64,000 bases of DNA from Polyangia bacterium (GTDB taxonomy: Bacteria; Myxococcota_A; Polyangia; Polyangiales; JAUICN01): positions 145,929-209,928 of the forward strand of contig JAUICN010000001.1 in assembly GCA_030427835.1 (NCBI GenBank), given 5' to 3'. Made by a program: the position numbers and the translations under genes. Positions 417 through 53,279 of the stretch are shown in pieces. Below the pieces are notes generated by a model. That model saw only the letters and a list, made by a program, of their open reading frames with translations, had not been told where the DNA came from and did no database searches. Each line of letters opens with the position of its first letter. Within the stretch, counting starts at the first letter, position 1.

Positions 417-547
417 TCCGCCTGTAGTCTCATTTTTTACTCATATTTGATCCTGGCCTGCATGTTGCATGTTTTCGCCGTTAGGTTCCTGGCGCAGCGC
501 AGCACCTGTCGCCTGGGCCCGTATTTCGTTCATTTGTGGAGGATGTT

Positions 548-1960
548 TTGCGAACACTTCGATTGGCTTGGGTTGGGTGCGGTGTTTTTCTGTGCGTGTG
601 GTTCTGGGGTGGGTGCCTGGCGGCCAACGGTGACAACGGCACGCCTGGTACGAAGGGTAGCCAAGCCCTGGGCCGTTACATCGCCATCGGCCCGCGTGCG
701 CCCACACGGTTGACCAACTGCACCGGGCGTAAGGAGAGCCAATCAGAACCACCTGTTGTGTACTGTGACGGTTGGGTCTCGCACCCGGGCAGCGGCATCC
801 GTCACAAGGTTCCTGTGTGGGACCTCGACGCGTCTGCGCTGGAAGGGTCCATGTCCTTGGGAGACGTTGCTTGGGATCTGTCGTCAGTGATTTACCGGCC
901 TGCCCTTCCCTCTTCCGATATGGAAACCATGGTTGCTAAACAGTCTCCCACCCAGGAGCCACCACTAGCCCCAGTACTTCGGGGTGGGCTCATGCACACC
1001 CTGGCAGCCCTGTCCCACCGTAGCGCCGGTACCCCTCGCGAACGTAAACGGTACGTGGGAGCGGCGGCCCTTGGCCCGATGGCGTACGAGGGGAAGATTC
1101 TCGGTTGGACGGTTCCCAGCGTCATACTCAGCGCCCGACCCATGGCCCTAGCGACCACTTCGAGGGCTCAAAACGACCAATTGGCTAGCTCATCCACACT
1201 TGTTCGCACGGTTCCTCGACCCCCGCCGTTGAAACCAGGGTATCGTGGCTTGGGGTGGATGGCTGTGCTGGGGACCCTGGCAGAGGCAGTGTCCCACCAG
1301 ATTCAGGTTGCCGATGGGTTGGATTGGTTTGCCTGGCCCGTGGAGCACCTGGATGACGGATCCATCCGTGTCGGCCAACCCCGTGCTGAGCTTCTAAGAA
1401 AGGATATCGAGCAACAGGCGGAGATGTGGGAATGGGAGGAGCTCGATCCTCTTAAGGCTTCCGCGTTGACCCATGAGCACATCGTGAAGGAGACCTACAG
1501 GGATCAGTTTCCGGTTCTCGACATGGAAGGTGATGACTACTTCGCCCTACGGCAGACCCTGGTGTCGGGTGGGCATATCCCTCCCCTGGTTCCCGCGCTC
1601 CCTCCTGGAAATTTCTGTGCCGCCATCTACCAGGGGCCCCACGCCCTGTGTCAGGCGGCGGAGCACCCGGCGTTTGCCGACTTGCTAGCGGCCAGAGAAG
1701 GTTGGGGGTGGATTTTGGGAGGCAATAGCGCCGGAGATGTGCGGTGCCCGGTGGTTCTTGTGTACCGGCATGGTCAAGAGATGGGATCGTTCTTCTTCCA
1801 CGGGGGTGTACTTCCCACCCCACAGAGTGGCATTGTTTTTCGAATCTCGAGTCTCCTGACCAACCAGATCGGGGGTAACCAACGCATTGCGTACGAGAGT
1901 AAAGTTCAGGAAAGAATGAATGCGGTGGGTTGCGAGCTGTTTCAGTTCGTACTCCAGTAG
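548..1960 (+). CDS. Secreted lipoprotein of unknown function (paralog 1 of two)
   Basis: No known domain is recognised. The N-terminus is hydrophobic and ends in WGGC, so it is probably a lipoprotein. I place the start at TTG 548 because GGAGG lies 5 bases upstream; an in-frame GTG at 536 lacks such a site. The protein (about 470 residues) is a paralog of the product of 6063-7535. Both have an early Y-C-x-G-W motif, a middle hydrophobic segment (LGWMAVLGTLAEAV here), and a C-terminal region with CPV, an aromatic/Gly strand and a late GC (VGCELF here, MGCSGI there). It is convergent with two pseudo-trypsin genes, just as its paralog is convergent with four, which hints at a functional pairing (inference). 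Confidence 0.7.
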   Translation: MRTLRLAWVGCGVFLCVWFWGGCLAANGDNGTPGTKGSQALGRYIAIGPRAPTRLTNCTGRKESQSEPPVVYCDGWVSHPGSGIRHKVPVWDLDASALEGSMSLGDVAWDLSSVIYRPALPSSDMETMVAKQSPTQEPPLAPVLRGGLMHTLAALSHRSAGTPRERKRYVGAAALGPMAYEGKILGWTVPSVILSARPMALATTSRAQNDQLASSSTLVRTVPRPPPLKPGYRGLGWMAVLGTLAEAVSHQIQVADGLDWFAWPVEHLDDGSIRVGQPRAELLRKDIEQQAEMWEWEELDPLKASALTHEHIVKETYRDQFPVLDMEGDDYFALRQTLVSGGHIPPLVPALPPGNFCAAIYQGPHALCQAAEHPAFADLLAAREGWGWILGGNSAGDVRCPVVLVYRHGQEMGSFFFHGGVLPTPQSGIVFRISSLLTNQIGGNQRIAYESKVQERMNAVGCELFQFVLQ

Positions 1961-2011: not shown

Positions 2012-3760
2012 CTATTGCCCCCCTGGGGGTTGTAGGGTGAGCAGGGCTTGGTAGAGGGTGATTTCGTCGTCGGTGTATTCATCATCGAGCTGGAAGTGGT
2101 GTCTCAGGCGGGGGGCCAGACGCTTCGCTGCAATGTCGTAGGTAGGGGACTGGCAGGCGCAATCGATTCTGCTTTCGTCTTCGGTTTCATCGCAGGTGGG
2201 TAGTTCGTCTGGGCACCTCACAGACGGGCGGGGGCCGCTTTGAACGTGGACACCCACGGGTTGGCCTGCCCCCTGCCCGATCACCACGTCCAGGTAACCC
2301 ATGACCTGTTGTTGTGTTTCAACGTCCTCGAAACGTACGCTTACCTGCTGAATGTCTACGCGGCCTTTCGTTGTACTTTGGCAATGGCCAGGGGTGGAAC
2401 TCAGGTACGCATCTCGTCCGAACAATGATCGGTGGAGCGTACCTTGGGCCTGTGGCCTCACATCGTTGGGGGCACGGGATGAGGGGCAGCGGTCTGCAAT
2501 CAGATCCCCAGACGCGGTGGACGCAAACTCTGGAGCGGCCTCGGATACGCAGTCGAGAAACTCACGGTTGGCCCCTACCGTGGCGAGGGCTCCACGGGTG
2601 AGGGTGGCTCGCTGGCCGGTAGCCACCCCCAACAGCTGGTTGCCCAGAAGGGCGCCTCCACCCTCATCGCCTGGCCGCACTTCGGCGCCTACGCCAGCGA
2701 CCTCCCAATGGCCGGCAAGATGTGCACGCACATCGTAGGGTCTCCAGTGTTGAGCGAAACCCGTATTGGGTTTTCCGTATCCAAAAATCTGTAGCTTTGA
2801 CCTCACGTCGTCGGGATCGGGCATGGTGTTGGCAATCCGCGCTCGTGTTCCCCGTGGGATGGCAATAGAGTCTTTGGAAAGAAGTACCGCCATGTCATGG
2901 GTGGCTAGGATCGTTTTGTTGGGAGCCCACCAACCCCAGAAGGACTTGTTGACCAGGGTCAGGTGAATGGAGACCGTTCCTGTGGTCTCCAGGCGCCCGA
3001 CACCGATTCGAAGTTGGGAGGGGTTGGACCCCGACATCCATTTCTTGATACAGCTTGCTGCTGTCACCGCCACCGTGGGAAATCCTGCCACCGGTAGATC
3101 CACCAGTGTGGCGGCGCAGGCCAAGCGATGGAGGTTTCCCTGTTCTGAAAGTACATGCAGCCGGGGTGCGGTCGAAGGTGCCATACCCGCCCCCCAATCC
3201 CGGGACTGCCCAGCGCGGAGGCGCCCGGATATTTTGACTGACAGGTAATCTACCGCTTTGTCCTCCCGATCTTCTTTCGGCCTTATCACTCGCTTGAGTT
3301 TCGTGGCTAAACTGCTCTGTGCATCACTTTGCCCCATCCATTGCTCAGATTCACAGGTTGCCGGTGGATACAATGCCTGTCTCGTGCCTTCCGTGATCAA
3401 GTAGCGTTTGGTTTTGAGACTGTAGTGCATGGCAATCCCTGGGAAAATGTCATCCAGGCCTTCCCCTTCCGGATCCAACGCGTTGTTGCCGTCTCCGGAT
3501 AGGTTCACCAGCACCGTGGCCGAACGTATGAGGCCCAACGCGCTGCAAGGCCCAGTGTAAATCGAGGCCCTCAGATAGGCCGGGTCCACAATCATCTCAC
3601 CCACACGAATTGCGCTGAGCCCTAGGTCACCGAGGTCCTTGACGCCGGGTGGTTGGGTATGATGCGGAGCGCACGCGCAGAGTATGAACAGCCCGGCAAG
3701 ACCTGCCTTGGGACCTCTGGCTCGGTGCTGGACCAAAAAGGCCTTGTGTTGGGTTTTCAT
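2012..3760 (-). CDS. Trypsin-fold pseudoprotease lipoprotein A
   Basis: A 582-residue secreted protein with a lipoprotein signal (ILCAC, Cys30). An uncharacterised N-terminal region (to about 200) precedes a trypsin-like core. Its parts are CAATL with a second Cys in TAASC237 (the Cys42-Cys58 pair), HDMAVLL, GYG near 328 and GDEGGGALL near 364. The His57 position is Ser236 and the Ser195 position is Glu366, while Asp289 is kept. With these residues it should not be a serine protease. The C-terminus has a CP-x5-C...CAC cysteine module (516-536) and an acidic helical tail. The start was chosen at ATG 3760 because it overlaps the stop of the upstream gene by four bases (ATGA), indicating translational coupling with 3757-5679. 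Confidence 0.85.
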   Translation of the reverse strand: MKTQHKAFLVQHRARGPKAGLAGLFILCACAPHHTQPPGVKDLGDLGLSAIRVGEMIVDPAYLRASIYTGPCSALGLIRSATVLVNLSGDGNNALDPEGEGLDDIFPGIAMHYSLKTKRYLITEGTRQALYPPATCESEQWMGQSDAQSSLATKLKRVIRPKEDREDKAVDYLSVKISGRLRAGQSRDWGAGMAPSTAPRLHVLSEQGNLHRLACAATLVDLPVAGFPTVAVTAASCIKKWMSGSNPSQLRIGVGRLETTGTVSIHLTLVNKSFWGWWAPNKTILATHDMAVLLSKDSIAIPRGTRARIANTMPDPDDVRSKLQIFGYGKPNTGFAQHWRPYDVRAHLAGHWEVAGVGAEVRPGDEGGGALLGNQLLGVATGQRATLTRGALATVGANREFLDCVSEAAPEFASTASGDLIADRCPSSRAPNDVRPQAQGTLHRSLFGRDAYLSSTPGHCQSTTKGRVDIQQVSVRFEDVETQQQVMGYLDVVIGQGAGQPVGVHVQSGPRPSVRCPDELPTCDETEDESRIDCACQSPTYDIAAKRLAPRLRHHFQLDDEYTDDEITLYQALLTLQPPGGQ

Positions 3761-5679
3761 GGGCGGTTCCCTAGGGAGTTTTTCATGGTTTTCAGGAGGC
3801 TGTAGAAGTCGGTTTCGTCGTTGTCGAAGTCTTGGTGGGCGGCGTTGAGGTAGTTGCGAAAGCGGGGAACGGCGTGGCGGAGGGCCTGCTCGTAGTCGCG
3901 GGTGTGGCAGGCGCATTCGGTGCCGGTGACTGCAGCCACTTCTTCGCACCGGGGTAGCTCATGGGGGCACGGGTTGTGAAACACGTGGCCATCGCCAATG
4001 AATACCCCGTAGTAGGGTTCCTGGTGATTGACTTGCGCCCCTGGGCCCGTGGACAGGTACTGTGCCTCGATGGTGAGCGGAAAGTCGCGTATGAACTGGG
4101 GCAACTCGTCTGACAGTGCGCTGACCACCAGTTGGCGGGTGTTGTACACCTTGTCCCCTGCAAAACCCCTACAGCGGCCGGATTCCTCGCGGATGGCGAG
4201 CGTTCTTCCAAACGCTTCCATCAACCTCGTGCCCTCGGTGAAGGGGCCCGTAGGCAAATCCGTTTGGTCGGGGCAATGGTCTGCCAAAACCTCAAAGCCG
4301 CGACTCCCGAAATCGGTCCAGGTGCTGAAGTCGTTGCTCTGAACACACCCTAGAAAGTCGTGATTCATGCTCAGGGGCGCTGCGATGCTGTGTTCGTGAA
4401 CCTCTTGCTCGCTCACCACCGCCACGGGGACCTTCCGTTGAATTACCGCACCGCCCCCACACCCTGTGCAGCCCGCAGCGGGCGTGCCGTAGTAGTTCCA
4501 CAGAAACCTGGGAGGTTCCTCCAACGCCACGACGGATCGGGGTGTCCAGGTTTGGGGAAACCCGGTCTGGGGCCGCCCATAGGTGATGATGGATAGGTTC
4601 GAAGCGTGCGCCGCTGGGCCGGGTGTTGGGCTGGGTGCTGGGTTCGCAACGGCCCGGGATTGGGTCAGAAGTGTGTCCGCCAGGGGCAACCGTGGAACAG
4701 GCATGTTCTTCGTGGAAAGTAGAATGGCCACATCGTGGGGGCGCAATCGATCCTTCGCCTGGGAACGGTACGAGTTCTCCCAGTATTGGCGGTGAGGGAT
4801 CACCACATGCACGGGGATGGTGGTCGCTGCGTCGACCACTCCGTGACCCAAGCGAAGCGGTCGAACATGCTCGGTACGGGAAATGATATCGGAAATGGAT
4901 CCCTCTGGCTTGATGCAGCTCGCCGAAGTGAGTGCAACCATGGGGTACCCGTTTACCTCCAAGTCCACAGGAACGGCGGCGCAAACAAAGCGGCCCAAAT
5001 CCCCGGATTCTTCCAGAATGTACAGGGGCGCATGGGAGCTTCGTGCTTCATGCACCTGGGGCCACCAGTAGCTGTCCTGAACGAGCCGATTCATGACCTG
5101 GGCCACAAATCTTTGTACCCGTTCGGCAACGGTTGCTGGAGCCGGAGGGAGTTCCAGGAGCCTGCGCACGGTATGGACCCACTGCGCTGCCTGGTTCACC
5201 ACCTCCGCGTGGGCTTGCTTGAAGGACATGCCGAACGGGGTGCACACAGGTGGCGGCAGGACCGCAAAGGGCTCTAGGGACGTGGTGACGAGAAACTGTT
5301 GGGTGTAGACACTGTAGTGCAAGCCCAGGGACGAGTCGGCGTTGCTCCAATCGTTTTCTTCGACCGGTCCTGTGGTTCCTGTCTCAAGCCAGGGTGGTTC
5401 GGAAAACTCAGGGTCATCATGGTCCGATGGAAGCTCGGCATCCATCTCGAACATGAGGGTGCGTATCAGGCCATGTTCTGGGCAGTTCTGGAAGTAGCCC
5501 GACGCGCGTAGGCGGGAAGCCACCACCTCCATGTCATCGTCAAGCTCCAGGCGTGGTATTTCCAGGTCACCTAGGCTGGGCTCGTGGTGGCTGGCCTTGG
5601 TGACCGAGGGTAGAGGGGAGCAGGCCAGGAAGACCGCGCACGCGAGTACAGCCATGGGGCACAGAACTCCGGAACCCAT
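3757..5679 (-). CDS. Trypsin-fold pseudoprotease lipoprotein B
   Basis: A 640-residue paralog of the neighbouring product, first gene of a two-gene operon. The signal ends in FLAC (Cys20 from the chosen ATG at 5679); an ATG at 5655 would leave a very short signal and the open frame extends to 5874. The trypsin-like core runs from about 230 to 470: CAAVP and TSASC255, HDVAILL, TYG, then CTGCGGGAV. The His position is Ser254, Asp316 is retained, and the Ser195 position is Cys407 with the preceding Asp changed to Gly. A Cys nucleophile without a His partner is not expected to be active. The C-terminal cysteine module (CP-x5-C...CAC) is present, followed by a tail like that of protein A. Between core and signal is an N-terminal region shared loosely by all six paralogs. 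Confidence 0.85.
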   Translation of the reverse strand: MGSGVLCPMAVLACAVFLACSPLPSVTKASHHEPSLGDLEIPRLELDDDMEVVASRLRASGYFQNCPEHGLIRTLMFEMDAELPSDHDDPEFSEPPWLETGTTGPVEENDWSNADSSLGLHYSVYTQQFLVTTSLEPFAVLPPPVCTPFGMSFKQAHAEVVNQAAQWVHTVRRLLELPPAPATVAERVQRFVAQVMNRLVQDSYWWPQVHEARSSHAPLYILEESGDLGRFVCAAVPVDLEVNGYPMVALTSASCIKPEGSISDIISRTEHVRPLRLGHGVVDAATTIPVHVVIPHRQYWENSYRSQAKDRLRPHDVAILLSTKNMPVPRLPLADTLLTQSRAVANPAPSPTPGPAAHASNLSIITYGRPQTGFPQTWTPRSVVALEEPPRFLWNYYGTPAAGCTGCGGGAVIQRKVPVAVVSEQEVHEHSIAAPLSMNHDFLGCVQSNDFSTWTDFGSRGFEVLADHCPDQTDLPTGPFTEGTRLMEAFGRTLAIREESGRCRGFAGDKVYNTRQLVVSALSDELPQFIRDFPLTIEAQYLSTGPGAQVNHQEPYYGVFIGDGHVFHNPCPHELPRCEEVAAVTGTECACHTRDYEQALRHAVPRFRNYLNAAHQDFDNDETDFYSLLKTMKNSLGNRP

Positions 5680-6062
5680 ACAAACAGGCCCACCGTTCTC
5701 TATTGGGCCCGTTCCGGAGGCTTGGATCGCCCACACCTTGAGCTTTGGAACGGGAGGGTTCGAGCTGCAGCGGGCCCTATTTGGGCTAAAAGAACACGGT
5801 GCCACATGGGGACGTAGGCAAGGCCTGTTCCGCCGTGAATCGATCGCTGATTTCGACCCGGACATCGGTCGCAACGGACAGGAACCGCACTCAGACGGTC
5901 ACCGTGGTGGCCATGGCGTTTTACAAACAAACCGGAGTTGTCCGGGTGTTTCATGTGGCGGCGCAACCACGAAACGAGGCCTAGAAACCTGTACTCCGTT
6001 TCACATTTTCAACTATTCGTCCGGTTTTTATCCTGGAATACTATTTGCTTGGTTTCTTTTCT
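5680..6062. promoter_or_regulatory. Divergent intergenic region between pseudoprotease B and lipoprotein X2
   Basis: This 383-base stretch separates the minus-strand two-gene operon from the plus-strand lipoprotein gene, so it must carry both promoters. A TACTAT hexamer at 6039-6044 could be a -10 box for the plus-strand gene, but no good -35 box stands at the right distance. Open frames here look like shadows. No RNA gene or clear operator is visible. Confidence 0.4.
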
Positions 6063-7535
6063 ATGGCCCCTGACGTTCAATCCCCTTCGACCCGCTCACC
6101 CATTTTCGACCCCCCGAATGCCGCACGCACACGCCTTCACCTGATTTCCTGTCTGGTCACAGCGCTATCTATCAGTGCAATCAATGCCTGTGCCGCGGTG
6201 GAGAATCCTCCCATTGGCTCAAAGGCCACTGCCACTCCTGAAGGAGAGCCCTACCTTCTGTTGACATCACGGAAGGTGCTCAACTTGGGTTATTGTGAGG
6301 CGGGCCCCTTGCCGGCTAGGGGTCACAGCCAATGGATAGAACAACAACTGGGCAGGGCGCCTCTACCCAATGGGGTGTATTGCTCAGGGTGGAACCCGAA
6401 CCCACAGTCCCCAGGCTACATTCCTATTCGCGTGCGCAACCTGGTGACTCCACCTGATGACAGTGACGATGGCGGAACCCGCCGCGGCCGCATGGCCAAC
6501 GTCACCTATGCCGCTTCGCCATGGAACGACTGGCTTGGGATCGGGCACCTTGAAGAAGCCGTTGAAAAGGCACAAGTGGGGAAACCCCTGCCAGAGGGCG
6601 TAGCGGACGCCATGGTTCGGTTAAGCACGACCCAACGGGGTACGTTGCGCGCCAAGGAACTGGTAGGTGCGAGATTCCCCCAGGTCTACGAAGCGATTGC
6701 CCTCGGGAAGCCCCGCTTTGACGGAACCTTTTGGAGCGTTCCCGGTGTCATGGTCGTGTCGCTGTCAGGGCCGATGCTGCAAGCCGGACCTGAAACCGTG
6801 CAAGCAAGGCAAGGAACACTGGTCGCCACGGGCCCGGGCGGCGCTCGGGTGATGCCCCATCGTATGTCTATGGGTCGGGGCGTCTCGGGTGGAATGGCAT
6901 TGATGCTCGTCGAAGGACTCCGGGTACTCAGTGATGTCATCAACCACTCGAAGGAGGCCGCATGGGACCTGTCGGTGGTCCAGCCCCTGGCGGACGGGAG
7001 CGTCGAGATTCTCAACGGTGCTTCCTTCAAAACCCTGGAAGACGTACGAGCCGCCACCGACGCCATCTGGAACGGAGACTACACATTCACCGAGAAGAAA
7101 GGGCCGATGATGCGGGTTGTGAAATCACCGAAAACGGAGACGGGTACTGGTAGGCCCAGTGGGTTCGATCCACCCGACTACGAGGACATGGACTATTGCC
7201 AGGTGACCCACCCGGGCACCCACATAAACTGTATTGGCGACTACGACGCGATTCTCAACGACGATCTTTTTCTGGGGACGTACTTGCTTGCGTCTGACGC
7301 TTCGGCTGTTACGTGTCCTGTCACTGTGGGCTACCGGAAGGGATCTGCCACTGGAACGATTTCGTTTGGGGGCGGCCACATTACAAGCCCTGACATTGCT
7401 CAGGTGTTCGACAGGGGCCCGTTCTTTTCTCCCAGCGGTCAGCCCATGCAATCCCATGCCAAGGAAGTTTCGGTGAATGCCTTTTTGCAATCCATGGGCT
7501 GTTCTGGAATCGAATACGTCACGATCACAAACTAG
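6063..7535 (+). CDS. Secreted lipoprotein of unknown function (paralog 2 of two)
   Basis: A 490-residue protein with no recognised domain. The N-terminus has an Arg-containing n-region, a hydrophobic stretch and INAC, so lipidation is likely. ATG 6063 is preferred to TTG 6045, although neither has a strong ribosome-binding site. It shares with 548-1960 the Y-C-x-G-W motif (VYCSGW), a middle segment, a C-x4-G...C pair before residue 400, and a final domain with CPVTVGYRKG and FGGGHI. Overall identity looks low but the order of motifs is the same. It ends 25 bases from the stop of the convergent four-gene pseudoprotease run. Secreted, probably facing the periplasm or cell surface; its role is unknown. 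Confidence 0.7.
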   Translation: MAPDVQSPSTRSPIFDPPNAARTRLHLISCLVTALSISAINACAAVENPPIGSKATATPEGEPYLLLTSRKVLNLGYCEAGPLPARGHSQWIEQQLGRAPLPNGVYCSGWNPNPQSPGYIPIRVRNLVTPPDDSDDGGTRRGRMANVTYAASPWNDWLGIGHLEEAVEKAQVGKPLPEGVADAMVRLSTTQRGTLRAKELVGARFPQVYEAIALGKPRFDGTFWSVPGVMVVSLSGPMLQAGPETVQARQGTLVATGPGGARVMPHRMSMGRGVSGGMALMLVEGLRVLSDVINHSKEAAWDLSVVQPLADGSVEILNGASFKTLEDVRAATDAIWNGDYTFTEKKGPMMRVVKSPKTETGTGRPSGFDPPDYEDMDYCQVTHPGTHINCIGDYDAILNDDLFLGTYLLASDASAVTCPVTVGYRKGSATGTISFGGGHITSPDIAQVFDRGPFFSPSGQPMQSHAKEVSVNAFLQSMGCSGIEYVTITN

Positions 7536-7560
7536 TGGGCCGATTGAACTGGCGGCCTAG

Positions 7561-9480
7561 CTACCAGCTTTTTCCGACGCGTATGGCTTGCAGGGTTTGG
7601 GTGAATTGTTGGGCTTCTAGGGGGGTGACTTCGGGGAGTTCTAGGGCGCGCTTGGTGAGGCGGAGGACGTGTTGCAGGGCCGCCTCCTTGGTTTTCCATT
7701 GGCAGTCGCAGGTATCCAGAAGCTCTGGGGTGGCGTTCTCGCAGGAGCCAAAGGTACTGGGGCACTTGCGGGCATCGTTGGGGCCCGCGAGCTGGACGGA
7801 GAAGATATCCTGAACCACCTGTGGGCCCAGCTTCGGTGCGGGTACCTCCTGGGCGACCACGGTGATTTCGAGATTCCTCACCCCGCCTTGGGGGTTTGCT
7901 GCCATGCCCTGGTCCTTTTTTTGAAAGTACAGGGGGAGTTCCAAGACCCCAGGGAACTTGCCGTTCTCGGCCGGCCCACAGGCGCTTGACTGCCAGGGTT
8001 CGACAATGATGCGGTAGCCCCACAGATCCATTTCCCGGGCGCCCAGGGCAATGAGGCTATCCCCTCCCCTAAGACCTCGATCGTTGGATTGGGATGTGTC
8101 GTTGCAACTGGCTGAATCGACCTTCATGGAACCATCTGTGGGGACCTCTCCCGCAGCAAGCGCAAGGGCGCAATTGATAAAACCTCGGTGTTCCAGCATG
8201 GATTCGATGAAGATGTGCTCGTTTTTTTCACCCCAGGTTCCGTTGACCACCCCCCAAATCACTTTGGTGCCGTTGTCCCCACATGCGCTGAGAAGACCGC
8301 CACCGCCGTCGCCCATGGCATGGAAACCCGATCCAAACGATAGGCTCCAATAGTGGTCCCGGCTACTTTCCATGTTCTGTTCGATCCACTCCTGTCGGTG
8401 CGTCGATACTGCTACCAGTTCACCCGCAGGCGCGAGAGAAGGATTTCCGGTTCGAGGAAGGCCGTATCCCACGGTAAAAAGCTTCTTGTCCGGTGCGGAT
8501 AGTACTTGGTGGGATGCCGGAAGTGCAGCCACCGCGCCGGACAGGGTGCCTCGACTAAACAGGAGGGCAATGTCGTTGGGAGCGGTGGCCTCGAACTGGT
8601 ATCCGGGAAAACCCGCCACGACCGACTGGGTTACATCGTGCGGATAACGGCTGTGAACCACTGCGAGCTCCACCGGAAGGACCTGCTGCGTGTTGAATAC
8701 GCCCGTGCCAAGCCCGAGGGATCGGTGTTTCCTGACACAGGAGGCACTGGTGATGGCCACGGTATTCCAGGCGCCTTCTGGGCTGCCCGGAACCCGTATG
8801 GGAGTGGCCGCGCAGGAGAGCCGCCGGTGCCCCGCGTGGAGGGTCGAAATGTACGCGTGGGGCACACCCGATGTTGCGTTCTCTGTACCGGGAGATGACA
8901 CAGGACTTCGAACAACCCCGGGGAAATCTCCCTGCTCAAGCTTTGTGAAGAGACTTTTCACCCGACTCTCAATACCTGTGAAGTGGCCGTCTTCAACGTA
9001 CAAATTGTTGTGGGCAAGGAACTCCAACGCCCACCTGGCGGCATGCAGATGGGCTTTCTCCTGAGCCTCGATCCGGGACATCGATAGATCACCACAGGCC
9101 AGGGGTTCGTGTTGGGGGGGGGACCCGACGGCCTCCTTGACCAGGTAGGCACTGGAGTCTGCACTGCGGTACACGACAAGGGACTCACGCCCGCCGATTT
9201 TCAGAAGCACGTTGGGGTCGTCCAGATGGTGGTTCACTTCATCTGGAAATAGGCCAAGGGTCACGCTCCAGATGCGGCCGTACCCTGGGCAATCCTGCTC
9301 AAGACCAGAGACCCAGGGCCCCGCGCCTGCAAACCTCCAGCCCACTCCCAGGGGGAGTGGGGCAAACAGGGGCACGCTGCTTTGCGGTGCTTTGGCATGC
9401 CCCTGGGGACGGGCTGTACACGCTGCACCCAACACCCACAGCAAAGGCACTATCGCAAACAGGAATCGTAGTGGAAACAT
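7561..9480 (-). CDS. Trypsin-fold pseudoprotease lipoprotein C
   Basis: A 639-residue member of the six-gene family and last gene of the second run. ATG 9480 gives a fitting lipoprotein signal (VLGAAC, Cys21); a GTG at 9510 is in frame but would add ten residues ahead of it. Core: CAATP with TSASC248, NDIALLF, GYG near 338 and GDGGGGLL. The His position is Ser247, Asp303 is kept, and the Ser195 position is Gly392. The active site is therefore lost, while the fold markers remain. The cysteine module reads CPSTFGSC...CDC, followed by a helical tail. It lies 33 bases after the preceding gene, so it is probably co-transcribed with it. Confidence 0.85.
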   Translation of the reverse strand: MFPLRFLFAIVPLLWVLGAACTARPQGHAKAPQSSVPLFAPLPLGVGWRFAGAGPWVSGLEQDCPGYGRIWSVTLGLFPDEVNHHLDDPNVLLKIGGRESLVVYRSADSSAYLVKEAVGSPPQHEPLACGDLSMSRIEAQEKAHLHAARWALEFLAHNNLYVEDGHFTGIESRVKSLFTKLEQGDFPGVVRSPVSSPGTENATSGVPHAYISTLHAGHRRLSCAATPIRVPGSPEGAWNTVAITSASCVRKHRSLGLGTGVFNTQQVLPVELAVVHSRYPHDVTQSVVAGFPGYQFEATAPNDIALLFSRGTLSGAVAALPASHQVLSAPDKKLFTVGYGLPRTGNPSLAPAGELVAVSTHRQEWIEQNMESSRDHYWSLSFGSGFHAMGDGGGGLLSACGDNGTKVIWGVVNGTWGEKNEHIFIESMLEHRGFINCALALAAGEVPTDGSMKVDSASCNDTSQSNDRGLRGGDSLIALGAREMDLWGYRIIVEPWQSSACGPAENGKFPGVLELPLYFQKKDQGMAANPQGGVRNLEITVVAQEVPAPKLGPQVVQDIFSVQLAGPNDARKCPSTFGSCENATPELLDTCDCQWKTKEAALQHVLRLTKRALELPEVTPLEAQQFTQTLQAIRVGKSW

Positions 9481-9513
9481 TGATTTTGGGGAAGGATGGG
9501 AGGCGCGCACGAT

Positions 9514-11373
9514 CTAGTCTTTCTTGTTTTCTAAGTCTTTGCGCAGGATGGCCTGGGAAAGTAGCTCGACGCCTGCGTCGTGGATGGGAGCAACGCCCAC
9601 GTGGAGTTGAACCAGGTGTGCTGCGTGGCGCGCCGCCTCTCCCAGGCTCTCCCAACGAACACTGCAGTTCGGCGCACGCTCCGGGGGTTCTTTGCAGGCA
9701 CCCAGGGAGGAGGGGCATTGGAGAGGCTCCATGGGATCCACGGTTTGGACCGATGCATACAGGGGGCCGTAGCTGTACAGGGTCGTGAGGTACTCCACGC
9801 CCACCGCAAACTGCCCCACGGGCAGACGGTGACCCACCTGCCCTTTTTTGTACACGCTGATCCGCCTCTGGGGGATGTGGGAAGAGGGCACCCCGTTGTT
9901 CAAGCACTGGGCCACTTCCCAACCCTCCACCACCACCTCGTGATCCCAGAGATCCAGTTTCCGCGCAGACAGTGCAGTGGGGGCACTGCCCAGAAACAGC
10001 CTGCGATCCTGTTGGGCATCGTCGCAGTGGGCGCGGTCCACCCAGGTGGCTCCAGGAGCGATACCATTGGGAGCGTTCTCTGCTTTTGACTGTTGCAGGG
10101 CACAACGGAGAAATGCATGGTGTTCCAACACGGGCGTCAGGTAGATCAACGTGTCAGATGCCGGGGGCACGCCACTGACCACGGCCCAGAGCACGTTGTC
10201 ATCACTGATGACTCCCCCACCGTCATCCCCTTTTGAAAGGGGTGCACGCACATGGGTGTACCAACCCCCGCGGGTACCAGGGTCTGTTGCCGACATACGC
10301 TCGCCATAGGCACTGATTTCTGCGGGTTGCCAAAGGTGAGCGGCACCGGTCCTCGGGCTCCCATAGCCCACACCAAACAGATTGGTTTCAGGTGCCTTCA
10401 CCACATCGTAGGCGGGCGGCATCTTGGCCCATAATCCTGGGAGGGGCTTGTCCGAAAATACCATGGCGATGTTGTCAAAGTTGTGCGTCTCAATCGCAAT
10501 CTGACTTATCTTGGGTGGCCTGTAGTTGGCATGGGCAACGGCCAACCGGAGGGGCACCATGTTGGATGCGTCAAAATCACCCGTGCCTAGGTAGTAGGTG
10601 TGGCCCCGTTTCAGGCAGGAATCGGCAGTGACCGCGGCTACGCCGGTGGACTCCTGGGCACTCTCCCACCCGTGGGTTTGGATGGGAGTTGCGGCACAAA
10701 CCAGGTGCACGTGATCACCTTCCTGTTCCGCGAGATATCCGTGGGGGACCTGTTCTCCAATGGTACCGGTGCGCAGGCGCCCGGGTGCGTTGAGGAATCC
10801 GGACTGCATCCGTGCGACGAGTTGGGTCAGCGAGTCGTAGAGCCGATCGCCGTCAAGTGTGGCCTGGACCATGCGATGGCGATTCCATGTCTCGACCAGG
10901 TCCAACAGTCGGTCGAGCAGTATGCTCGGAAGTCCCTGGGCAGGAAGTTGGAAGGAACGGCAACCCGGTGTGGGTCGCCGCCCCCTTCCAGTATGCATCT
11001 CAAATGCAAACCTATGGGTTCGCCTACTGTAGTGCAGGACCACGTGCCCGGCATCATGCAGGGAGGCTACGGTCCAGGGGTCGTCCATGTAGTAATACGC
11101 ACTTGGATGGATCGCACCGAGGTGTACCGACAGGATATGGGGGTGCTCTGGGCATTCATTTAGGAAACCAGAAACCCAGGGACCCAGGGCTCCCAACACC
11201 CAATCCTCGCTGAGTTCCATCGGTTCCATGAGGTAACTTCGGGAATGTGTGGACTTGCCCCGTTTTCCGAACTCACCGTCGGGCGCGCACGACAGCGCAG
11301 CTAACCCAGCCACCATGGCGGCCAGAGGCAACAGGTAGGCCACAACAATGGGCGAGCGCGATTCCATGGTCAT
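9514..11373 (-). CDS. Trypsin-fold pseudoprotease lipoprotein D
   Basis: A 619-residue paralog. The start at ATG 11373 overlaps the stop of the upstream gene by four bases (ATGA); a second ATG at 11367 follows in frame. The signal ends in ALSC (Cys29). Core: CAATP with TADSC253, DNIAMVF, GYG and GDDGGGVIS. The His position is Ser252, the Asp102 position is Asn301 and the Ser195 position is Asp384, so all three catalytic residues are gone. A conserved GPWVSG segment before residue 70 is shared with protein C, suggesting that C and D are the closest pair. The terminal cysteine module is CPSSLGAC...NC but lacks the final CxC seen in the others. Confidence 0.85.
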   Translation of the reverse strand: MTMESRSPIVVAYLLPLAAMVAGLAALSCAPDGEFGKRGKSTHSRSYLMEPMELSEDWVLGALGPWVSGFLNECPEHPHILSVHLGAIHPSAYYYMDDPWTVASLHDAGHVVLHYSRRTHRFAFEMHTGRGRRPTPGCRSFQLPAQGLPSILLDRLLDLVETWNRHRMVQATLDGDRLYDSLTQLVARMQSGFLNAPGRLRTGTIGEQVPHGYLAEQEGDHVHLVCAATPIQTHGWESAQESTGVAAVTADSCLKRGHTYYLGTGDFDASNMVPLRLAVAHANYRPPKISQIAIETHNFDNIAMVFSDKPLPGLWAKMPPAYDVVKAPETNLFGVGYGSPRTGAAHLWQPAEISAYGERMSATDPGTRGGWYTHVRAPLSKGDDGGGVISDDNVLWAVVSGVPPASDTLIYLTPVLEHHAFLRCALQQSKAENAPNGIAPGATWVDRAHCDDAQQDRRLFLGSAPTALSARKLDLWDHEVVVEGWEVAQCLNNGVPSSHIPQRRISVYKKGQVGHRLPVGQFAVGVEYLTTLYSYGPLYASVQTVDPMEPLQCPSSLGACKEPPERAPNCSVRWESLGEAARHAAHLVQLHVGVAPIHDAGVELLSQAILRKDLENKKD

Positions 11374-13205
11374 TGGGAAAGCGCCATTGCAAGATGTTCG
11401 TAAAGAACGACGGCATCGTTGTCGTATGCACTGGTGGTGGCTCCATACCCCCCGCGAACTTGAGCCACAACCACAGTGGCCGCGTCCTCTGGTGTGAATA
11501 CTTTGCACGCACACAGGTGACCCGGAAAGTTCATATCGCAGGAACCCATTTGCTGGGGGCACTGTATCTGTGACTTCTCTGTTTCAACGACATGGATCCC
11601 GTACACGGTTTCGTGTTCGACAGGGATCGACGCGAGGTACGCCCCTTCCCTATCAAAGTTACTGCTGCGCTTGACTAGAATGCGGTGACTTTTACCCGTG
11701 TCACTATCGACAATGGAAAACCATAGGTGATCTACTGGATAAAATGGCCCGTAGGGACCGGCCGAATCGGGGGAACATACGGCCGACTCCACGCCGAACG
11801 AATGGAACTCGTATCCAAAAACCAGGATTTCTTCCGCAGTGTCGTCATAGGGAGCAGGCCCACCACCTTGGGGGCAGGAACTCGTGAGCAATTGATAGTT
11901 CGGAGAGGCTGGATCGATGCGATCGTGATCACGGGGAGCACGGTGATACACGGCGGCCTCTGCAGCACACCGGAAAAAATCAGCGTGGGTGCCCACGGGT
12001 ATCACAGACACCCCCTCGAGATGACCTTCATCGTCGAAGGCACTGTCGTTCACCACTCCAAATAGTGTCCCATCTGAGATGAATCCACCGCCCGTGTCCG
12101 CTGTCTCAGTGCGTATTTCGGGCCCGTGAATCGTCCACAGGGGACCCGCCCCGGATCCCACACGTGTGCCCTGGCCGTTCCACACCCGAGGCAAACCCAA
12201 CTCGGGTCGACCATAGCCAAATACTTGACCGTTGCTTGATGGGATCTTACCCCGGCGCGCCAGTCGATATGTGGCTCCGGTTTCGTGCCGTTGGGAAAAC
12301 AGCACCGCGAGCCCGTAGTTTCTTCCAAAAAAGGAATCGTAGTTGCGGTGCACGACTGCAAGCTCCACCGGGATGACATTCTTTGAGTTCACGGGACCGC
12401 GACCCACAAGCAAGGGCAAATCGTTTCTTAGCTCCCCGGTGACGTCCAAGTAGTTGAGGCAATCCGCGTGGGCGACCCAGGCGGACCCGTGGTTTGACAG
12501 GGGCAGATGAACCGGAGTCGCGGCGCACACCAATCGCAACAGATCCCCATGTTGCTGCATTACATAGGCGAAGTCCGATTCGATTTTCGCGGGAGCGGTG
12601 TCCGTGGGCGGATACCGATACTGCACAAAGGCTTCATAGACACTTCGCGAGAACGCCTTGATCTTGTCTCGATCCTTTTGGTTCGGCGGGAAGACCCTTA
12701 GCAAGTCATAGACTTCTGTGACTGCGGCAAGCAACTCGCCATGGAACTCGTAGAGTGACTCCCGCGCCGTTTTCTGAAACACCGTGCATTGCTCAGGGGG
12801 TGTGGCGGCTTTCCCGCCATTGCTCTTGGTTGCTTCGAACCGCATCGTGTCCTGGTTCCAATGCAGTCCCACCACGGGCTCCAATTCGTGCCACGGAACC
12901 ACAAGCTCAGAATTCATGGGTTCATAGATGTTGATGAAGATATTGAGAGAGCTGATACGCCCGCCGCCTTCGCAGGGAGCCGCGTAGCCACTTAGGAAGG
13001 TCCTCGCATTGTCGAGCACAACACCGTGCTGGAGTTCCACGGGTGCGACGTCGAGGTCACTGGATTTTCGCTGCGTGTCGCCCGCCCCCAGCGGTGTGCA
13101 GGCCCCTAGGAGGGAGGTCATGATCGCCACGCTGCGGGGACAACAAACTCGTGTCGCCTTACCTAGAAAGGTCCGTGGGCATCTTTTTTTCACCCAGTCC
13201 TCCAT
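11370..13205 (-). CDS. Trypsin-fold pseudoprotease lipoprotein E
   Basis: A 611-residue paralog. The ATG at 13205 abuts the TAG stop of the upstream gene (TAGATG), consistent with termination-reinitiation. A basic n-region leads to LLGAC (Cys36). Core: CAATP with HADC249, YGLAVLF, GYG near 330 and ADTGGGFIS. The His57 position is Asp248, the Asp102 position is Gly298 and the Ser195 position is Thr371. Although a His sits two residues earlier (His246), its register is wrong for catalysis. The cysteine module is CPQQMGSC...CAC. The core is conserved well enough to align by eye, so a structural or binding role is more likely than decay (inference). Confidence 0.85.
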   Translation of the reverse strand: MEDWVKKRCPRTFLGKATRVCCPRSVAIMTSLLGACTPLGAGDTQRKSSDLDVAPVELQHGVVLDNARTFLSGYAAPCEGGGRISSLNIFINIYEPMNSELVVPWHELEPVVGLHWNQDTMRFEATKSNGGKAATPPEQCTVFQKTARESLYEFHGELLAAVTEVYDLLRVFPPNQKDRDKIKAFSRSVYEAFVQYRYPPTDTAPAKIESDFAYVMQQHGDLLRLVCAATPVHLPLSNHGSAWVAHADCLNYLDVTGELRNDLPLLVGRGPVNSKNVIPVELAVVHRNYDSFFGRNYGLAVLFSQRHETGATYRLARRGKIPSSNGQVFGYGRPELGLPRVWNGQGTRVGSGAGPLWTIHGPEIRTETADTGGGFISDGTLFGVVNDSAFDDEGHLEGVSVIPVGTHADFFRCAAEAAVYHRAPRDHDRIDPASPNYQLLTSSCPQGGGPAPYDDTAEEILVFGYEFHSFGVESAVCSPDSAGPYGPFYPVDHLWFSIVDSDTGKSHRILVKRSSNFDREGAYLASIPVEHETVYGIHVVETEKSQIQCPQQMGSCDMNFPGHLCACKVFTPEDAATVVVAQVRGGYGATTSAYDNDAVVLYEHLAMALSQ

Positions 13206-15098
13206 CTAGCTGTCCACTAGGGCGCGTCGGAGGTTTTCGAGATCGTTGTGCGTGGGGTTTTCCACGCCAAGGTCAAATTGAATACGGTGCACCGCATTGT
13301 TGATGAGGTTTGTGGCCCCGTCTTGTCTGCATTTGCAGGTAAGATCGATGGGGACACCAGGTTGTTCTGGGTGGCATTCACACGCTCCAAAGGTGGAGGG
13401 GCACGCCATTTCGTGGGGCGCCACAACCGGCCCTACCATGCCGACCACGACAGGGGCCCCCGGCTCCTCACCCGTGGCCATGTTGCTCTCCACCGTGAGC
13501 GACCAACTCAACCGCAGACGTGTCTCACTGGACTGTTCCACTTCGTAGATGTTCCGCCGTTTGATGTGCCGGGTGGTATTGGCATCGACCCAACAGTGCC
13601 CCGGCTCCCAATTGGTTACCTCGAGCACATGCTCCCCAAAACCCAGAAGGGAATGATCATCCGGTTGTCCCTTGGGTTCATGGCCACAGGACTCAAAGTC
13701 ACTTACCCGTTTGGCGCCCTGGTTGGCAGGGGTGTTTAACGCCCTCTTGAAAGCGCACTCCAGAAACTCACGATTGGCACGAACCGTGGCAGCTTTCACG
13801 GAGGGCCTGCCGTTTTTCCCCCGGTAGCCCACCAGGGTTCCCCAATAGGTGCTTGGCTTTCCGTCCTTTCCCGGTTCGACGACTCCGCCACCCAGGTCGT
13901 GGACCCCCATCGGGGCATCCGGCCTGGGAAAGGTCCAGTAGCTTGCTCCCTCGGAGGTGGTTTCGCCCGATACCCGGTAGGCACGGGGTTGCCACTGGTA
14001 TGGGTTCACCGTCAAATAGTTGAGGTTTCTCTCCACAATGCTGTAGCCCACGGCCATCAGGGTGTGACCGTAGGGCTGCAGCCATCGATCCCTGGGCAGA
14101 CGCGCCCCGGGCTGGGTGCGGCCGTTGCTTGCGGCTGTCTTGGTTCCAAACAGGACCGCCAAGTGATGGCCGGGATTGCTTTCGCCACCAGACCCAAGCT
14201 TCCTGCTCATCGCATGCCCCACCACCAGGCCCACCCGCGCCATGTGACGGGGGTCCACCCTTCCGGTTCCCACGTAGATGTCAGCCCCCCCCACGCAGTC
14301 ACTGGAGGTCACCACCACCAGATTCCACCCTTTCACCGGGGGCACCACATCCAGGGCGGTGGCCGAGCAGCGGAGGAAGGCCACATCACCTGCATCCCAG
14401 AACACGTATGCCGCCGATGGTTCGCTGTTCAGGGCCAATGAACGCCCCTGGGGCCCCGCGGGGGTCTTGTTGATCTGGGGCAGGGCAGCCTTGACGTAGT
14501 CATCGATTTGGTGGAGGAGCCCCTTCGGATGATCGCTCTTGCCACTGGCCTCACGTAAGCCCGCCATGATGTGGTCGGCAGCCGATTCCACTACCTCGGC
14601 CTCGGATTTCACAAAGAGATCTTCACAGTTCCCGGATGGAAACTCCTCCCACGTGTTGTCCGCCAACAACACCGCGTACCGGTTGTTTGCGCTGTGGTGA
14701 ACACCCACTCGCTGGTGATCTGGCCAACGGGGAGGTTCGTCGGTGCCGAGTATTTCGAAATACAGGGATCGAACGGGAGAATCACCCGAGCAATACCGAA
14801 TGACAGACATCTCCGGATGCCTTGCGGAGAGGAACCACCCGTGCCCCAAATCAAGATCGGGCAACCCCGTCGCGCGCTTGGCGTGTTCTGACGGGCGAAC
14901 ATTGCCGGGGGCGCACCCCCCCGAAAACAACGCAAACCACCCAAACGATACCAACAACAACAGCATGGCAACACCACCGACGGGCTTGCATTTACGGGCC
15001 TTGGGACCCGCCAAGGGGGCCGATGGGGTGTGGAATACAACGTACACGGGGTTTGTGAACCCCACAGCAAGGTCTGTTCCTGGCCAAAACTCTCCCAA
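13206..15098 (-). CDS. Trypsin-fold pseudoprotease lipoprotein F
   Basis: A 630-residue paralog and first gene of the four-gene run. The start is uncertain: TTG 15098 opens the frame, GTG 15047 is another choice, and the lipoprotein signal (FSGGC, Cys62) lies well inside. Core: CSATA with TSSDC268, HHLAVLF, GYS in place of GYG, and VHDLGGGVV. The His57 position is Asp267, the Asp102 position is His312 and the Ser195 position is Leu402. This is the most degenerate active site of the six. The cysteine module is expanded (CPSTFGACECHP...CKC). Upstream lies a 226-base gap that should contain the operon promoter; nothing specific was recognised in it. Confidence 0.8.
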   Translation of the reverse strand: MGEFWPGTDLAVGFTNPVYVVFHTPSAPLAGPKARKCKPVGGVAMLLLLVSFGWFALFSGGCAPGNVRPSEHAKRATGLPDLDLGHGWFLSARHPEMSVIRYCSGDSPVRSLYFEILGTDEPPRWPDHQRVGVHHSANNRYAVLLADNTWEEFPSGNCEDLFVKSEAEVVESAADHIMAGLREASGKSDHPKGLLHQIDDYVKAALPQINKTPAGPQGRSLALNSEPSAAYVFWDAGDVAFLRCSATALDVVPPVKGWNLVVVTSSDCVGGADIYVGTGRVDPRHMARVGLVVGHAMSRKLGSGGESNPGHHLAVLFGTKTAASNGRTQPGARLPRDRWLQPYGHTLMAVGYSIVERNLNYLTVNPYQWQPRAYRVSGETTSEGASYWTFPRPDAPMGVHDLGGGVVEPGKDGKPSTYWGTLVGYRGKNGRPSVKAATVRANREFLECAFKRALNTPANQGAKRVSDFESCGHEPKGQPDDHSLLGFGEHVLEVTNWEPGHCWVDANTTRHIKRRNIYEVEQSSETRLRLSWSLTVESNMATGEEPGAPVVVGMVGPVVAPHEMACPSTFGACECHPEQPGVPIDLTCKCRQDGATNLINNAVHRIQFDLGVENPTHNDLENLRRALVDS

Positions 15099-15324: not shown

Positions 15325-18048
15325 CTAGTGAGCAGGTTCCACCTGGGTTCCGGGAGCAGGAAGGGGTGTTGGTGGGCGCGCGTTTCGGAGCCCCTGCTCC
15401 ATGGTGCTGGCCCGCTGGTTCGCGCGCTCCAGGTCCCGGCGGAGGTCCGTGGCGGATGAGTTCAGGCTAGCGATCTGGGCATAGGCACGGGCGGTTTCCT
15501 GGTGCGCAAGCGCCAACTCATCCTGCTTTCGGGCGAGCTCGTTCTGTTGTTGAGCCAAGGTGCGTTGCTGATCTGACGACGTGCGCTGCTGATCCGCCAG
15601 TTGTTGTTGGAGCCGGGCCGCCTGACGTTGGAGTACGGCCATGCGCTGTTCCAACTCCACTACCTGGGACTGTTGCCGGGCCAGCTTGTCCCCCAGTTGT
15701 AGATTCCGGGCCTCACTGGCTTGCCATTGGGTTTCAAGGTCCGTTGTGCGGGCCTGGGCCTGTACCAGTTCCTGGGCGGTATCGTCGGCACGTTTTCGGG
15801 TTTGGTTCAATTGCTGTTCCGTGTGTGCCAGGGCCTCTTCCCGGGCAGCCACGGTTTGCTGTGCCTCATTCAACTCTGCGCTTCTTTGCCGAAGATCCCC
15901 CGCCAGGCGTTCGCTGTGAGCGTTGGCCGTTTCCAGTTCGCTTGTGAGTTCCCCTGTACGTCGTCGTTCGGTGGCAAGGCTGGATTGGGAAACCGCAAAG
16001 CTCGCCTCCGCCTCACCCAGCTTGTGGGCCAAGTCCATGCGCGTCAGGCGGCTTTGCTGGTAGCGATCTTCGATGCGCGCCACATCCTGCTCCAGGGCCA
16101 TGCGCCGCTGGCTTTCCGCACTGAACTCGGCCCGCGCCTGCTCGGCCTGGAGCCGTTGAAACTCGGTCTGGTTGGCCATCACAAAAACCACTGCGGCAAA
16201 TACGGCGCCCAGGGCAAGCGTGGTTGGGGCGAGCCATCGAACAAGGCGCGCCCTCTTCGCCCGCTGCTCCTCGGGGCGGGTAAGCAAGGTTAACTCCTTT
16301 GCAAACTCCTCCGCCGTGGGCCGCTCTTTTGGGTCCAGGCTCATCCAGCGATCAAACGCGGAACGGAGGAAACGTAAATCCTTGGTGCGGGGATGCTCAG
16401 GAACCACACTTGCGCGGGCGGCCACGAAGCTTTCCACCGCACCGGCCTGAACCTCCTCTTGGGTCTCTGGATCCAGGGCATTGCGCAGGGCCAGGGCCAG
16501 GGAGAATACATCCGCCTTGGCGCCCACGGGGGGCTTTACCTGCGCATTGGCAAACTGGGCTGCCACTTCGGGCGCAAAGTAGGTTGGGGTACCGGCGACC
16601 ACCATTTCCGCTTCCTTGGCGGCCACTCCAAGATCGAGCAGCACGGGCAACAGGCCCTCTTCGGTGTCCCCACCAAAGCCTTCCAGCTTGGTGAGCAGAA
16701 TGTTGTCCGGCTTGATGTCCTGGTGCCGAATCCCCACCGCGTGCATGGTGGCCAGGGCGTAGGCGAGTTTTTCAAAGATGGGCCGGGCTTCCGCGCGGGA
16801 CAGGGCACCCCGCTTGAGGCGCGCACCCAGGGTTTCGCCGTCGTACCAGGGCATGACGAACCACAGGCGCCCCTCATGCCAACCGTGGTCCTTGAACTGA
16901 ACCACCGAGGGATGAAAGACTGAGGCAATAAGCCGCAACTCCCGCAATGCCGCATCCCGTGCCTGTTGGGAATAGGAGGGCTGGTGCAATAGTTTTAGGG
17001 CCACCACATGGTTGGGCACGTGGGTGTCTACCGCCCGGTACACGTCCGCAAAGGATCCGGATCCCGCCCGGCCTAGCACACGAAAACGGTTTCCGATGGT
17101 GGTGCCTTCGCACAGGGGGGCGTGGGTATCTGTGGCCCCAGGCTTGCTCTCCTCCTGGACCGACTCAAGCGCAAAGGCATCGAGCAATGCACTTCCAAGC
17201 CCACGCCTCTGATCGCCCTTGATCCCCTTGGATAGGGTCCTCAACGGTTCGACGGTGGGTGAACTTTCCGGGCGCTGCCCTGCTGTCTTGGGATCACCCA
17301 ACAGCTGTTCACCGAGCAGGAGCTGTGCATGGGACAGGGCGGTCTCGAGATGCTCCCGAACATCCCGCTCATTGCGCTCCACCACAAAGGCCACTTCTTC
17401 CAGGGTGAGTTCCCGGGCGTAACAAAGCTCCAGGAGTTCGGATTCCAGGGGCTGCAGTTCCTTTCGCAACCGGGCGAGGGCCTCGTTGTAGGCAGGATCG
17501 TGGAAGCTTCGAACCGGTAGGCCCAGGGTACTGTCCGCCCACTGCAGAGGCTGCCCCTGCTTTTGGGCCATTCGCCGGGCCATTTGAAATAGGCGTGCGC
17601 GGATCCCCGGGGCCTGAACCAACTGTTCCGCACCCTGCGCGGCCACCATGGCCTGGACTTCTGTGAGGGCCTGCTTTGCGTCCTCGAGATCTCCTAAACG
17701 AAAGGTCAGGTATTGGCGCAGGCCCTCGGCGTAATGGCTCAGGGCCCGAACGCGGACCACGTCCACGACGGTTCCCAACACGCCCGAAGAAGAGGTGCCC
17801 GTGGAAGATGGATCCTGCGAAGATGGATCCCGTGGAGAAAGGCCCGCGCGCGCCGCAATGGACTCCGCGGCGGCGGCAAACATGGGTCGCGTGCCCTTTT
17901 TCTGGCGGTCGGGTGAGGTGGAAGCCAAACCCAGGGAGTCTTGAATGGAAGCCATGGGGTCGAAGCAATCCCCGAGAAGGTCAGGGTTTACCTGTTTTCC
18001 CTGGGGCTGAATCCCCCTGGATTCTTCCAAAGGCGGCAAAAGGTCCAT
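15325..18048 (-). CDS. Ser/Thr protein kinase with ECF-sigma-like N-terminus, TM helix and coiled coil
   Basis: A 907-residue protein. Residues about 106-165 resemble ECF sigma region 2 (YAEGLRQYLTFRLGDLEDA, then a LFQMARRMA linker). Residues 190-245 resemble region 4 (LQPLESELLELCYARELTLE and a helix-turn-helix). A eukaryotic-type kinase domain spans 319-585: GRAGSGSFADVY loop, VALKLL lysine, RHQDIKPDN catalytic loop (HQD, not HRD), DLG in place of DFG, and YFAPE. One membrane helix follows (about 605-625), then a long Gln/Arg-rich coiled coil to a Pro-rich end. ATG 18048 is chosen because a TTG at 18150 would lie within a terminator. The catalytic Lys and Asp are present, so it is probably active. 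The sigma-like part may have become a regulatory or DNA-binding module. Confidence 0.85.
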   Translation of the reverse strand: MDLLPPLEESRGIQPQGKQVNPDLLGDCFDPMASIQDSLGLASTSPDRQKKGTRPMFAAAAESIAARAGLSPRDPSSQDPSSTGTSSSGVLGTVVDVVRVRALSHYAEGLRQYLTFRLGDLEDAKQALTEVQAMVAAQGAEQLVQAPGIRARLFQMARRMAQKQGQPLQWADSTLGLPVRSFHDPAYNEALARLRKELQPLESELLELCYARELTLEEVAFVVERNERDVREHLETALSHAQLLLGEQLLGDPKTAGQRPESSPTVEPLRTLSKGIKGDQRRGLGSALLDAFALESVQEESKPGATDTHAPLCEGTTIGNRFRVLGRAGSGSFADVYRAVDTHVPNHVVALKLLHQPSYSQQARDAALRELRLIASVFHPSVVQFKDHGWHEGRLWFVMPWYDGETLGARLKRGALSRAEARPIFEKLAYALATMHAVGIRHQDIKPDNILLTKLEGFGGDTEEGLLPVLLDLGVAAKEAEMVVAGTPTYFAPEVAAQFANAQVKPPVGAKADVFSLALALRNALDPETQEEVQAGAVESFVAARASVVPEHPRTKDLRFLRSAFDRWMSLDPKERPTAEEFAKELTLLTRPEEQRAKRARLVRWLAPTTLALGAVFAAVVFVMANQTEFQRLQAEQARAEFSAESQRRMALEQDVARIEDRYQQSRLTRMDLAHKLGEAEASFAVSQSSLATERRRTGELTSELETANAHSERLAGDLRQRSAELNEAQQTVAAREEALAHTEQQLNQTRKRADDTAQELVQAQARTTDLETQWQASEARNLQLGDKLARQQSQVVELEQRMAVLQRQAARLQQQLADQQRTSSDQQRTLAQQQNELARKQDELALAHQETARAYAQIASLNSSATDLRRDLERANQRASTMEQGLRNARPPTPLPAPGTQVEPAH

Positions 18049-18148
18049 GGAACCAAGGTCACATGGGCACCGCAAAGGATCAAAAAACCGGGGCGGACCT
18101 GCGCACGTGTTCACCCCCAGAACGACGATGCCCCGCTTTCGTTTCTTC

Positions 18149-18188
18149 AAAAAAAAGGTCAGAACCCATCAAGGTTCTGACCTTTTTT
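18149..18188 (-). terminator. Rho-independent terminator, bidirectional form
   Basis: A perfect 10-base stem (18157-18166 with 18173-18182) closes a 6-base loop and is flanked by an A-run on one side and a T-run on the other. It sits 22 bases after the stop of the minus-strand gene at 18211-18888 and should end its transcript before the kinase gene. Confidence 0.85.
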
Positions 18189-30107: not shown

Positions 30108-30324
30108 GCGAGGTCGCGTAGGGGAGCCGGGACTGGAGCATTTTGTGTTCTCAGAATGGAACGTGGAGCGCTCTATGCTCCGTAGGGGCCCCTCTTAGGT
30201 CGAACTATTCGGGTGGATCTTCCTTGGCACGGGGTGTGCAGTCGCTATTCGTGAAAGCACCTCAAGGATTCTGTTCTGTCGGTTGTGGGTGCGGGTGTAT
30301 TGCTTCTTACAGGAAATGACAACA

Positions 30325-53272: not shown

Positions 53273-53279
53273 GAGAGCC

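Follow-up and report, generated by a model that had tools for sequence, protein, structure and literature searches.

Putatively inactive serine proteases have been found across prokaryotes, with 42 of 966 proteins from five families placed in this class by a survey of 91 genomes (PMC2605481), and the bacterial pseudoproteases that we found described in the open-access literature are single proteins or small sets. In the case of the scabies mite, 33 inactivated S1 protease paralogues (SMIPP-S) target the host complement (PMC4031079). Among bacteria, MamO of Magnetospirillum is a trypsin-fold pseudoprotease of the magnetosome; it is a metal-binding protein and activates the proteolysis that depends on MamE (PMC4794232). 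CspC and CspA of Clostridioides difficile are described as pseudoproteases that take part in signalling alongside an active paralog (PMC6636752, PMC12880746). Families of paralogous lipoproteins are also found in Myxococcota, as with the polymorphic lipoprotein toxins SitA of myxobacteria (PMC8546572).

Here, we describe a family of predicted lipoproteins with an S1-like domain, six of which are encoded in a 64,000-nucleotide stretch of DNA (the window) from a Polyangiales genome. The first-pass annotation of this stretch stated that no described system has such a make-up. This is too strong, as SMIPP-S and MamO are known, but a bacterial S1 pseudoprotease family of such size or architecture was not found in the open-access literature.

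The six minus-strand open reading frames lie where they were first reported, at window positions 2012-15098, and encode predicted lipoproteins of ~580-640 aa (Table 1). Their paralogy is borne out by 21-30% identity to P0001 and by 24 invariant alignment columns, Cys, Gly and Trp being among the conserved residues. For four of the six genes, the likely start codon lies downstream of the start of the reading frame, beside the lipobox. The array had been called tandem, which is right for six genes but not for strict contiguity: a block of four (genes 6 to 3) and a block of two (genes 2 and 1) are separated by a plus-strand lipoprotein gene. Gene 6 is followed by gene 5 after 0 bases and gene 4 by gene 3 after 3 bases, while genes 5 and 4 overlap by an ATGA, as do genes 2 and 1; translation is therefore probably coupled across these junctions. 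A scan for sigma-70 promoters returned zero sites and was uninformative. The sole trace of gene conversion among the six is one 37-base match between P0001 and P0006, with no other recent event seen, and long DNA matches are limited to the two intact genes of contig C17.

Table 1. Coordinates of the features discussed (window positions, or contig:position in the host genome).
Feature	Position	Strand	Remarks
P0001, pseudo-S1 lipoprotein 1	2012..3760	-	57/102/195 = S/D/E; ORF 2012-3949; likely ATG at 3760, overlapping gene 2 stop (ATGA); S1-like domain 2531-3169
P0002, pseudo-S1 lipoprotein 2	3757..5679	-	S/D/C; D194 lost too; ORF 3757-5874; likely start 5679; S1-like domain 4327-5034
P0003, pseudo-S1 lipoprotein 3	7561..9510	-	S/D/G; gene whose product was folded; N-domain 8866-9420; S1-like domain 8152-8865; C-domain 7561-8151
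P0004, pseudo-S1 lipoprotein 4	9514..11373	-	S/N/D; ORF 9514-11562; ATG at 11373 overlaps gene 5 stop (ATGA); S1-like domain 10084-10749
P0005, pseudo-S1 lipoprotein 5	11370..13205	-	D/G/T; start adjoins gene 6 stop; S1-like domain 11949-12578
P0006, pseudo-S1 lipoprotein 6	13206..14966	-	D/H/L; ORF 13206-15098; S1-like domain 13737-14423
Lipoprotein flanking the array	536-1960	+	Lys signal example
Lipoprotein interrupting the array	6045-7535	+	Lys signal example
Ser/Thr kinase-domain protein	15325-18150	-	PF00069 match at C15:162228-163007
Other Lys signal examples	28785-30107; 30283-31602; 62112-63476
Paralog-like tandem genes	49158-50993; 51197-53326; 53419-55542	-
Intact-triad family members	C18:220454; C17:83965; C17:82134		H/D/S
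Dead members retaining His57	C1:12302; C1:13941
Dead member clustering with intact ones	C18:222428		tandem with C18:220454
Nineteenth, more distant protein	C15:232063-233568		His57 and Ser195 kept; without C-domain
Second lipoprotein family	C7:159957-161909; C30:253430-255307; C18:170170-171822		C-domain only in common; no recognisable S1
Short remnants	C25:32921-33472; C18:370265-370861		partial family sequence, near full-length members

Several neighbours of the array can be mentioned in their own right. The two plus-strand lipoproteins that flank and interrupt it are distant relatives (27% over 111 residues) and have no Pfam or NCBIfam match. Directly upstream of the array, on its own strand, is encoded a Ser/Thr kinase-domain protein with a long C-terminal coiled-coil-like tail. 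Kinases also occur near loci of contigs C17, C18 and C30, and a functional link was rejected as evidence, because the host genome carries 33 kinases and such neighbours are likely to arise by chance. Elsewhere in the window, three tandem minus-strand genes appear paralog-like by eye, with motifs in common such as FACTWPxNxNQQxWTA, and look like another lineage expansion of exported proteins.

A profile built from the six sequences recovers 12 more full-length members in the host genome (contigs C1, C2, C12, C17, C18 and C25), giving a family of 18 on seven contigs of this 3.3 Mb Polyangiales (Myxococcota) genome; a contig scan using P0003 as query had found no relative. All 18 frames are open, and all 18 members have one architecture, in which a lipobox is followed by an N-domain of ~160 aa, a chymotrypsin-fold domain and a Cys-rich C-domain, at a family identity of ~20-25% with invariant Cys columns. 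Completeness and contamination of the genome are given as 98.3% and 0%, and since the members are spread over many of its contigs, mis-binning is unlikely. The closest genomes examined belong to the same order as the host and to different families, and the nearest relatives of the arginine decarboxylase encoded in the window are found in Myxococcota and Sandaracinaceae MAGs, at 58-61%. The host can be inferred to belong to a Polyangiales family that is otherwise unsampled, and is a relative of predatory myxobacteria. Beyond the 18 members, the genome encodes a nineteenth, more distant protein, and a second lipoprotein family that has only the C-domain in common with the pseudoproteases, which suggests domain swapping. 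Two short remnants near full-length members can be taken as signs of gene birth and loss. The G005 relatives were rejected as family members, being ordinary intact trypsins of another architecture.

The relationship to peptidase family S1 was approached through fold and profile. An AlphaFold2 model of P0003, computed from an alignment of the six window sequences (pLDDT 65.6, pTM 0.65), bears out the trypsin fold proposed earlier: its residues 178-441 match S1 proteases of the PDB with a Foldseek E of 1.5e-8 and with a VIA-align Z of ~20.8 (213 residues aligned, 2.8 A). The chymotrypsin double beta-barrel is assigned to the other five window proteins through their paralogy with P0003. The S1 profile search that had been proposed gave a divided answer. 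Pfam and NCBIfam return no trypsin match for the window six, even at E 10, but the profile of all 18 members finds chymotrypsins, granzymes and kallikreins of solved structure, at a best E of 5.8e-10 and in a register that places TaasC over TAAHC and gDsGg over GDSGG; the S1 link of the window six is therefore made via profile and fold. Across the family, PF00089 matches three of the 18 members, one of the three genome places being a dead member. The fold landmarks listed in the first-pass annotation are mostly right, except that GYG is not universal (TYG in P0002, GYS in P0006) and that D194 is replaced by Gly in P0002. No IVGG-like motif was seen ahead of the S1 domain, the three intact members included; some bacterial S1 members do without a free IVGG-type N-terminus. 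Taken on profile and model, the family consists of predicted homologues of the chymotrypsin/trypsin family S1.

The catalytic columns can be read in the order P0003, P0001, P0002, P0004, P0005, P0006 and then the 12 others, as SSSSDDHHSSERHDGHQH for position 57, DDDNGHNNDHNDDNGDND for position 102 and GECDTLDERIVTSQRSRS for position 195. For the window six, the family alignment reproduces the residues given earlier: Ser in four and Asp in two at position 57; Asp in three and Asn, Gly and His in the others at position 102; Glu, Cys, Gly, Asp, Thr and Leu at position 195. The His57-Asp102-Ser195 triad is thus lost in all six window proteins and, over the family, in 15 of the 18 members, two of these dead members retaining His57; three members have an intact triad in the same columns (Table 1). 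The assignment of these columns to the catalytic positions follows from the intact paralogs that share them, from the alignment of the profile to solved and Polyangia S1 proteases and from the fold match of P0003. As a control, 25 S1 domains encoded by other Polyangia genomes were read at these positions of the model, and 24 of them show the full His/Asp/Ser triad; the sole exception, L172 from another Polyangiales genome, keeps His57 and Asp102 and has Glu at 195 (DGDEGSPV). Column 195 holds 11 residue types, among them Cys in P0002 and Thr in both P0005 and the C2 member. Of the 175 columns of the S1 region, it stands 164th by conservation, although its neighbours D194 and G196 are kept in 16 and 18 of the 18 members, respectively. 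Gly193, as read from the motifs, is kept in eight members and replaced in ten. The claim that the trypsin fold is kept while catalysis is lost is supported by the P0003 fold prediction, the profile alignments and the intact-triad paralogs, and appears to extend to 15 of the 18 members. On these grounds, the family fits the definition of a pseudoprotease, i.e., a protease fold predicted to be retained and catalytic residues lost.

The most conserved positions of the family are cysteines. A lipobox-like Cys ends the N-terminal hydrophobic stretch in all 18 members (invariant Cys at position 21 of P0003, counted from the downstream start), so that all 18 are predicted bacterial lipoproteins. In the same numbering, 14 members, none of them with an intact triad, carry both C437 and C459, and the other four carry neither. 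These four are the three intact members and one dead member, which is placed with them at 98/94 support in a tree whose deeper branches are weak and long. The C2 member has lost both C42 and C58. The N-domain, of ~160 residues, contains one conserved Cys pair, and the C-domain has conserved Cys too. Folded alone (pLDDT 73.9), the N-domain has no convincing match in the PDB (best Foldseek E 0.72, best VIA Z 3.6), and the confidence of the C-domain in the full P0003 model is low, about 50. Outside the host, neither domain was found in 318 Polyangia and 379 Myxococcota genomes save for one fragment of ~52 codons (E 4.7e-4). pN is lower than pS in all five pairs tested, dS being saturated between paralogs. 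The selection data say that the fold and the disulfides are kept, and leave relaxed and diversifying change at the old active site indistinguishable; the family being from one genome only, the variability at 195 could be relaxed instead of diversifying.

A separate observation concerns the lipoproteins of the host in general. Among 67 lipoprotein candidates, a set obtained by a rough filter that includes some false calls, Lys is enriched at +10, +11 and +12 after the lipobox Cys (12, 19 and 16%, the background being 3%), with Ser or Gly often coming next, as in GAKS, and this across unrelated families (examples in Table 1). It may be a lineage-specific sorting or processing signal, distinct from those of Myxococcus xanthus, namely Ala at +7 and Lys at +2 (PMC3222651).

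Altogether, the destruction of the site in 15 of 18 copies suggests that the protease has been converted many times, most likely into binding proteins. We consider it more likely than not that these proteins are lineage-specific, exported and lipid-anchored pseudoproteases, whose dead S1 domain is maintained by selection as a non-catalytic binding or partner module. An ancestral exported S1 protease would have duplicated; in one branch, catalysis would have been lost and the disulfide C437-C459 gained, which would tie the C-domain to the S1 domain. The dead domain would still bind, be it peptides, partner proteins, inhibitors or surface molecules of prey and competitors, the paralogs would diverge in what they bind, and the pseudoproteases would be displayed from the outer membrane in co-produced sets, although they may alternatively face the periplasm. 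A bolder extension, which we put forward only tentatively, is that surface-displayed dead trypsins form a diversified array for recognition, built on a conserved scaffold whose former active-site position is among those that vary most freely. The candidate roles suggested at the outset (binding proteins, baits, inhibitors or decoys) agree with this evidence.

The main rival is that the dead members are regulatory pseudoenzymes, which would bind, activate, inhibit or chaperone the three intact paralogs or other proteases, by analogy with MamO and MamE or with CspC/CspA and CspB. Dead and intact members do have the same architecture and one of each forms a tandem pair on C18, and in magnetotactic bacteria, active/inactive pairs have evolved on three occasions within the MamE family (PMC4794232). 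However, dead and intact members occur together at only one of eight loci, the window six have no intact neighbour, 15 dead against three intact copies is far from one-to-one, and the extra Cys pair of 14 dead members is absent from the intact ones, so that we regard regulation as somewhat unlikely. It is less likely still that the displayed domains act as decoys or sinks, absorbing inhibitors, phages, toxins or immune factors aimed at active surface proteases of the host. Such a role would suit an inert protease domain that is present in many diversified copies, and it has a parallel in the SMIPP-S acting on complement, yet the loss of His57, Asp102 and often Gly193 alters the very site that inhibitors would read, and SMIPP-S themselves work via a part of their surface distinct from the former active site (PMC4031079).

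Two further readings appear very improbable. Plain decay, in which redundant protease copies have lost their function and drift, would account for the two short remnants and for the apparent lack of constraint at position 195, but is disfavoured by the 15 full-length open frames on seven contigs, by the invariant disulfide columns, the co-varying Cys pairs and the retention of D194 and G196, as well as by pN < pS and the probable translational coupling. No more credit can be given to another chemistry, i.e., non-classical catalysis or metal binding in some members: Cys or Thr at 195 and the Asp and His substitutions at 57 and 102 could be read in this way, and in MamO metal is bound, at another site on the surface (PMC4794232), but no replacement set is common to the paralogs, each of which differs, and His57 is absent from every paralog with Cys or Thr at 195.

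Fifteen dead and three intact paralogs of one architecture in one 3.3 Mb genome provide a direct series from enzyme to non-enzyme, in which the passage from protease fold to binding module becomes testable through the stepwise loss of the triad (His57 in two dead members), the gained inter-domain Cys pair and the free variation at residue 195. Should the family bind molecules of prey, phage or competitors, it would represent a new kind of recognition repertoire in Myxococcota.

Several known systems can be compared with the family. SitA differs in being made of toxins delivered by outer membrane exchange (PMC8546572), and no toxin/immunity pairing was seen at the pseudoprotease genes. The nearest profile matches outside the host genome, with E down to 1e-19, are secreted S1 proteases of Polyangia (e.g., L163-L191), which are matched over the S1 region only, without the N- and C-domains, and have an intact triad in 24 of 25 cases. 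CspC and CspA have a subtilisin fold (S8) instead of the chymotrypsin fold. MamO is a bacterial trypsin-fold protein whose triad has degenerated and which has a residue other than Gly at 193, as in ten of the 18 members here, and its chains are weakly matched by the family profile (5hm9, E 1.3e-3); it nevertheless belongs to the Deg/HtrA branch, has a surface di-histidine metal site and is not part of a large Cys-rich lipoprotein family. The closest parallel in make-up is offered by SMIPP-S, likewise multi-copy S1-fold paralogs in which the catalytic site is lost and the dead fold is retained as a binding module. SMIPP-S are gut proteins of a eukaryotic parasite and lack the N- and C-domains of the family described here; they are characterised by descent from mite S1 proteases and by complement inhibition, and are compared as an analogue only, arisen independently as far as can be told. 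The proposed array of dead trypsins would be comparable to that of the scabies mite, but in a bacterium, with a lipid anchor and with two new domains attached.
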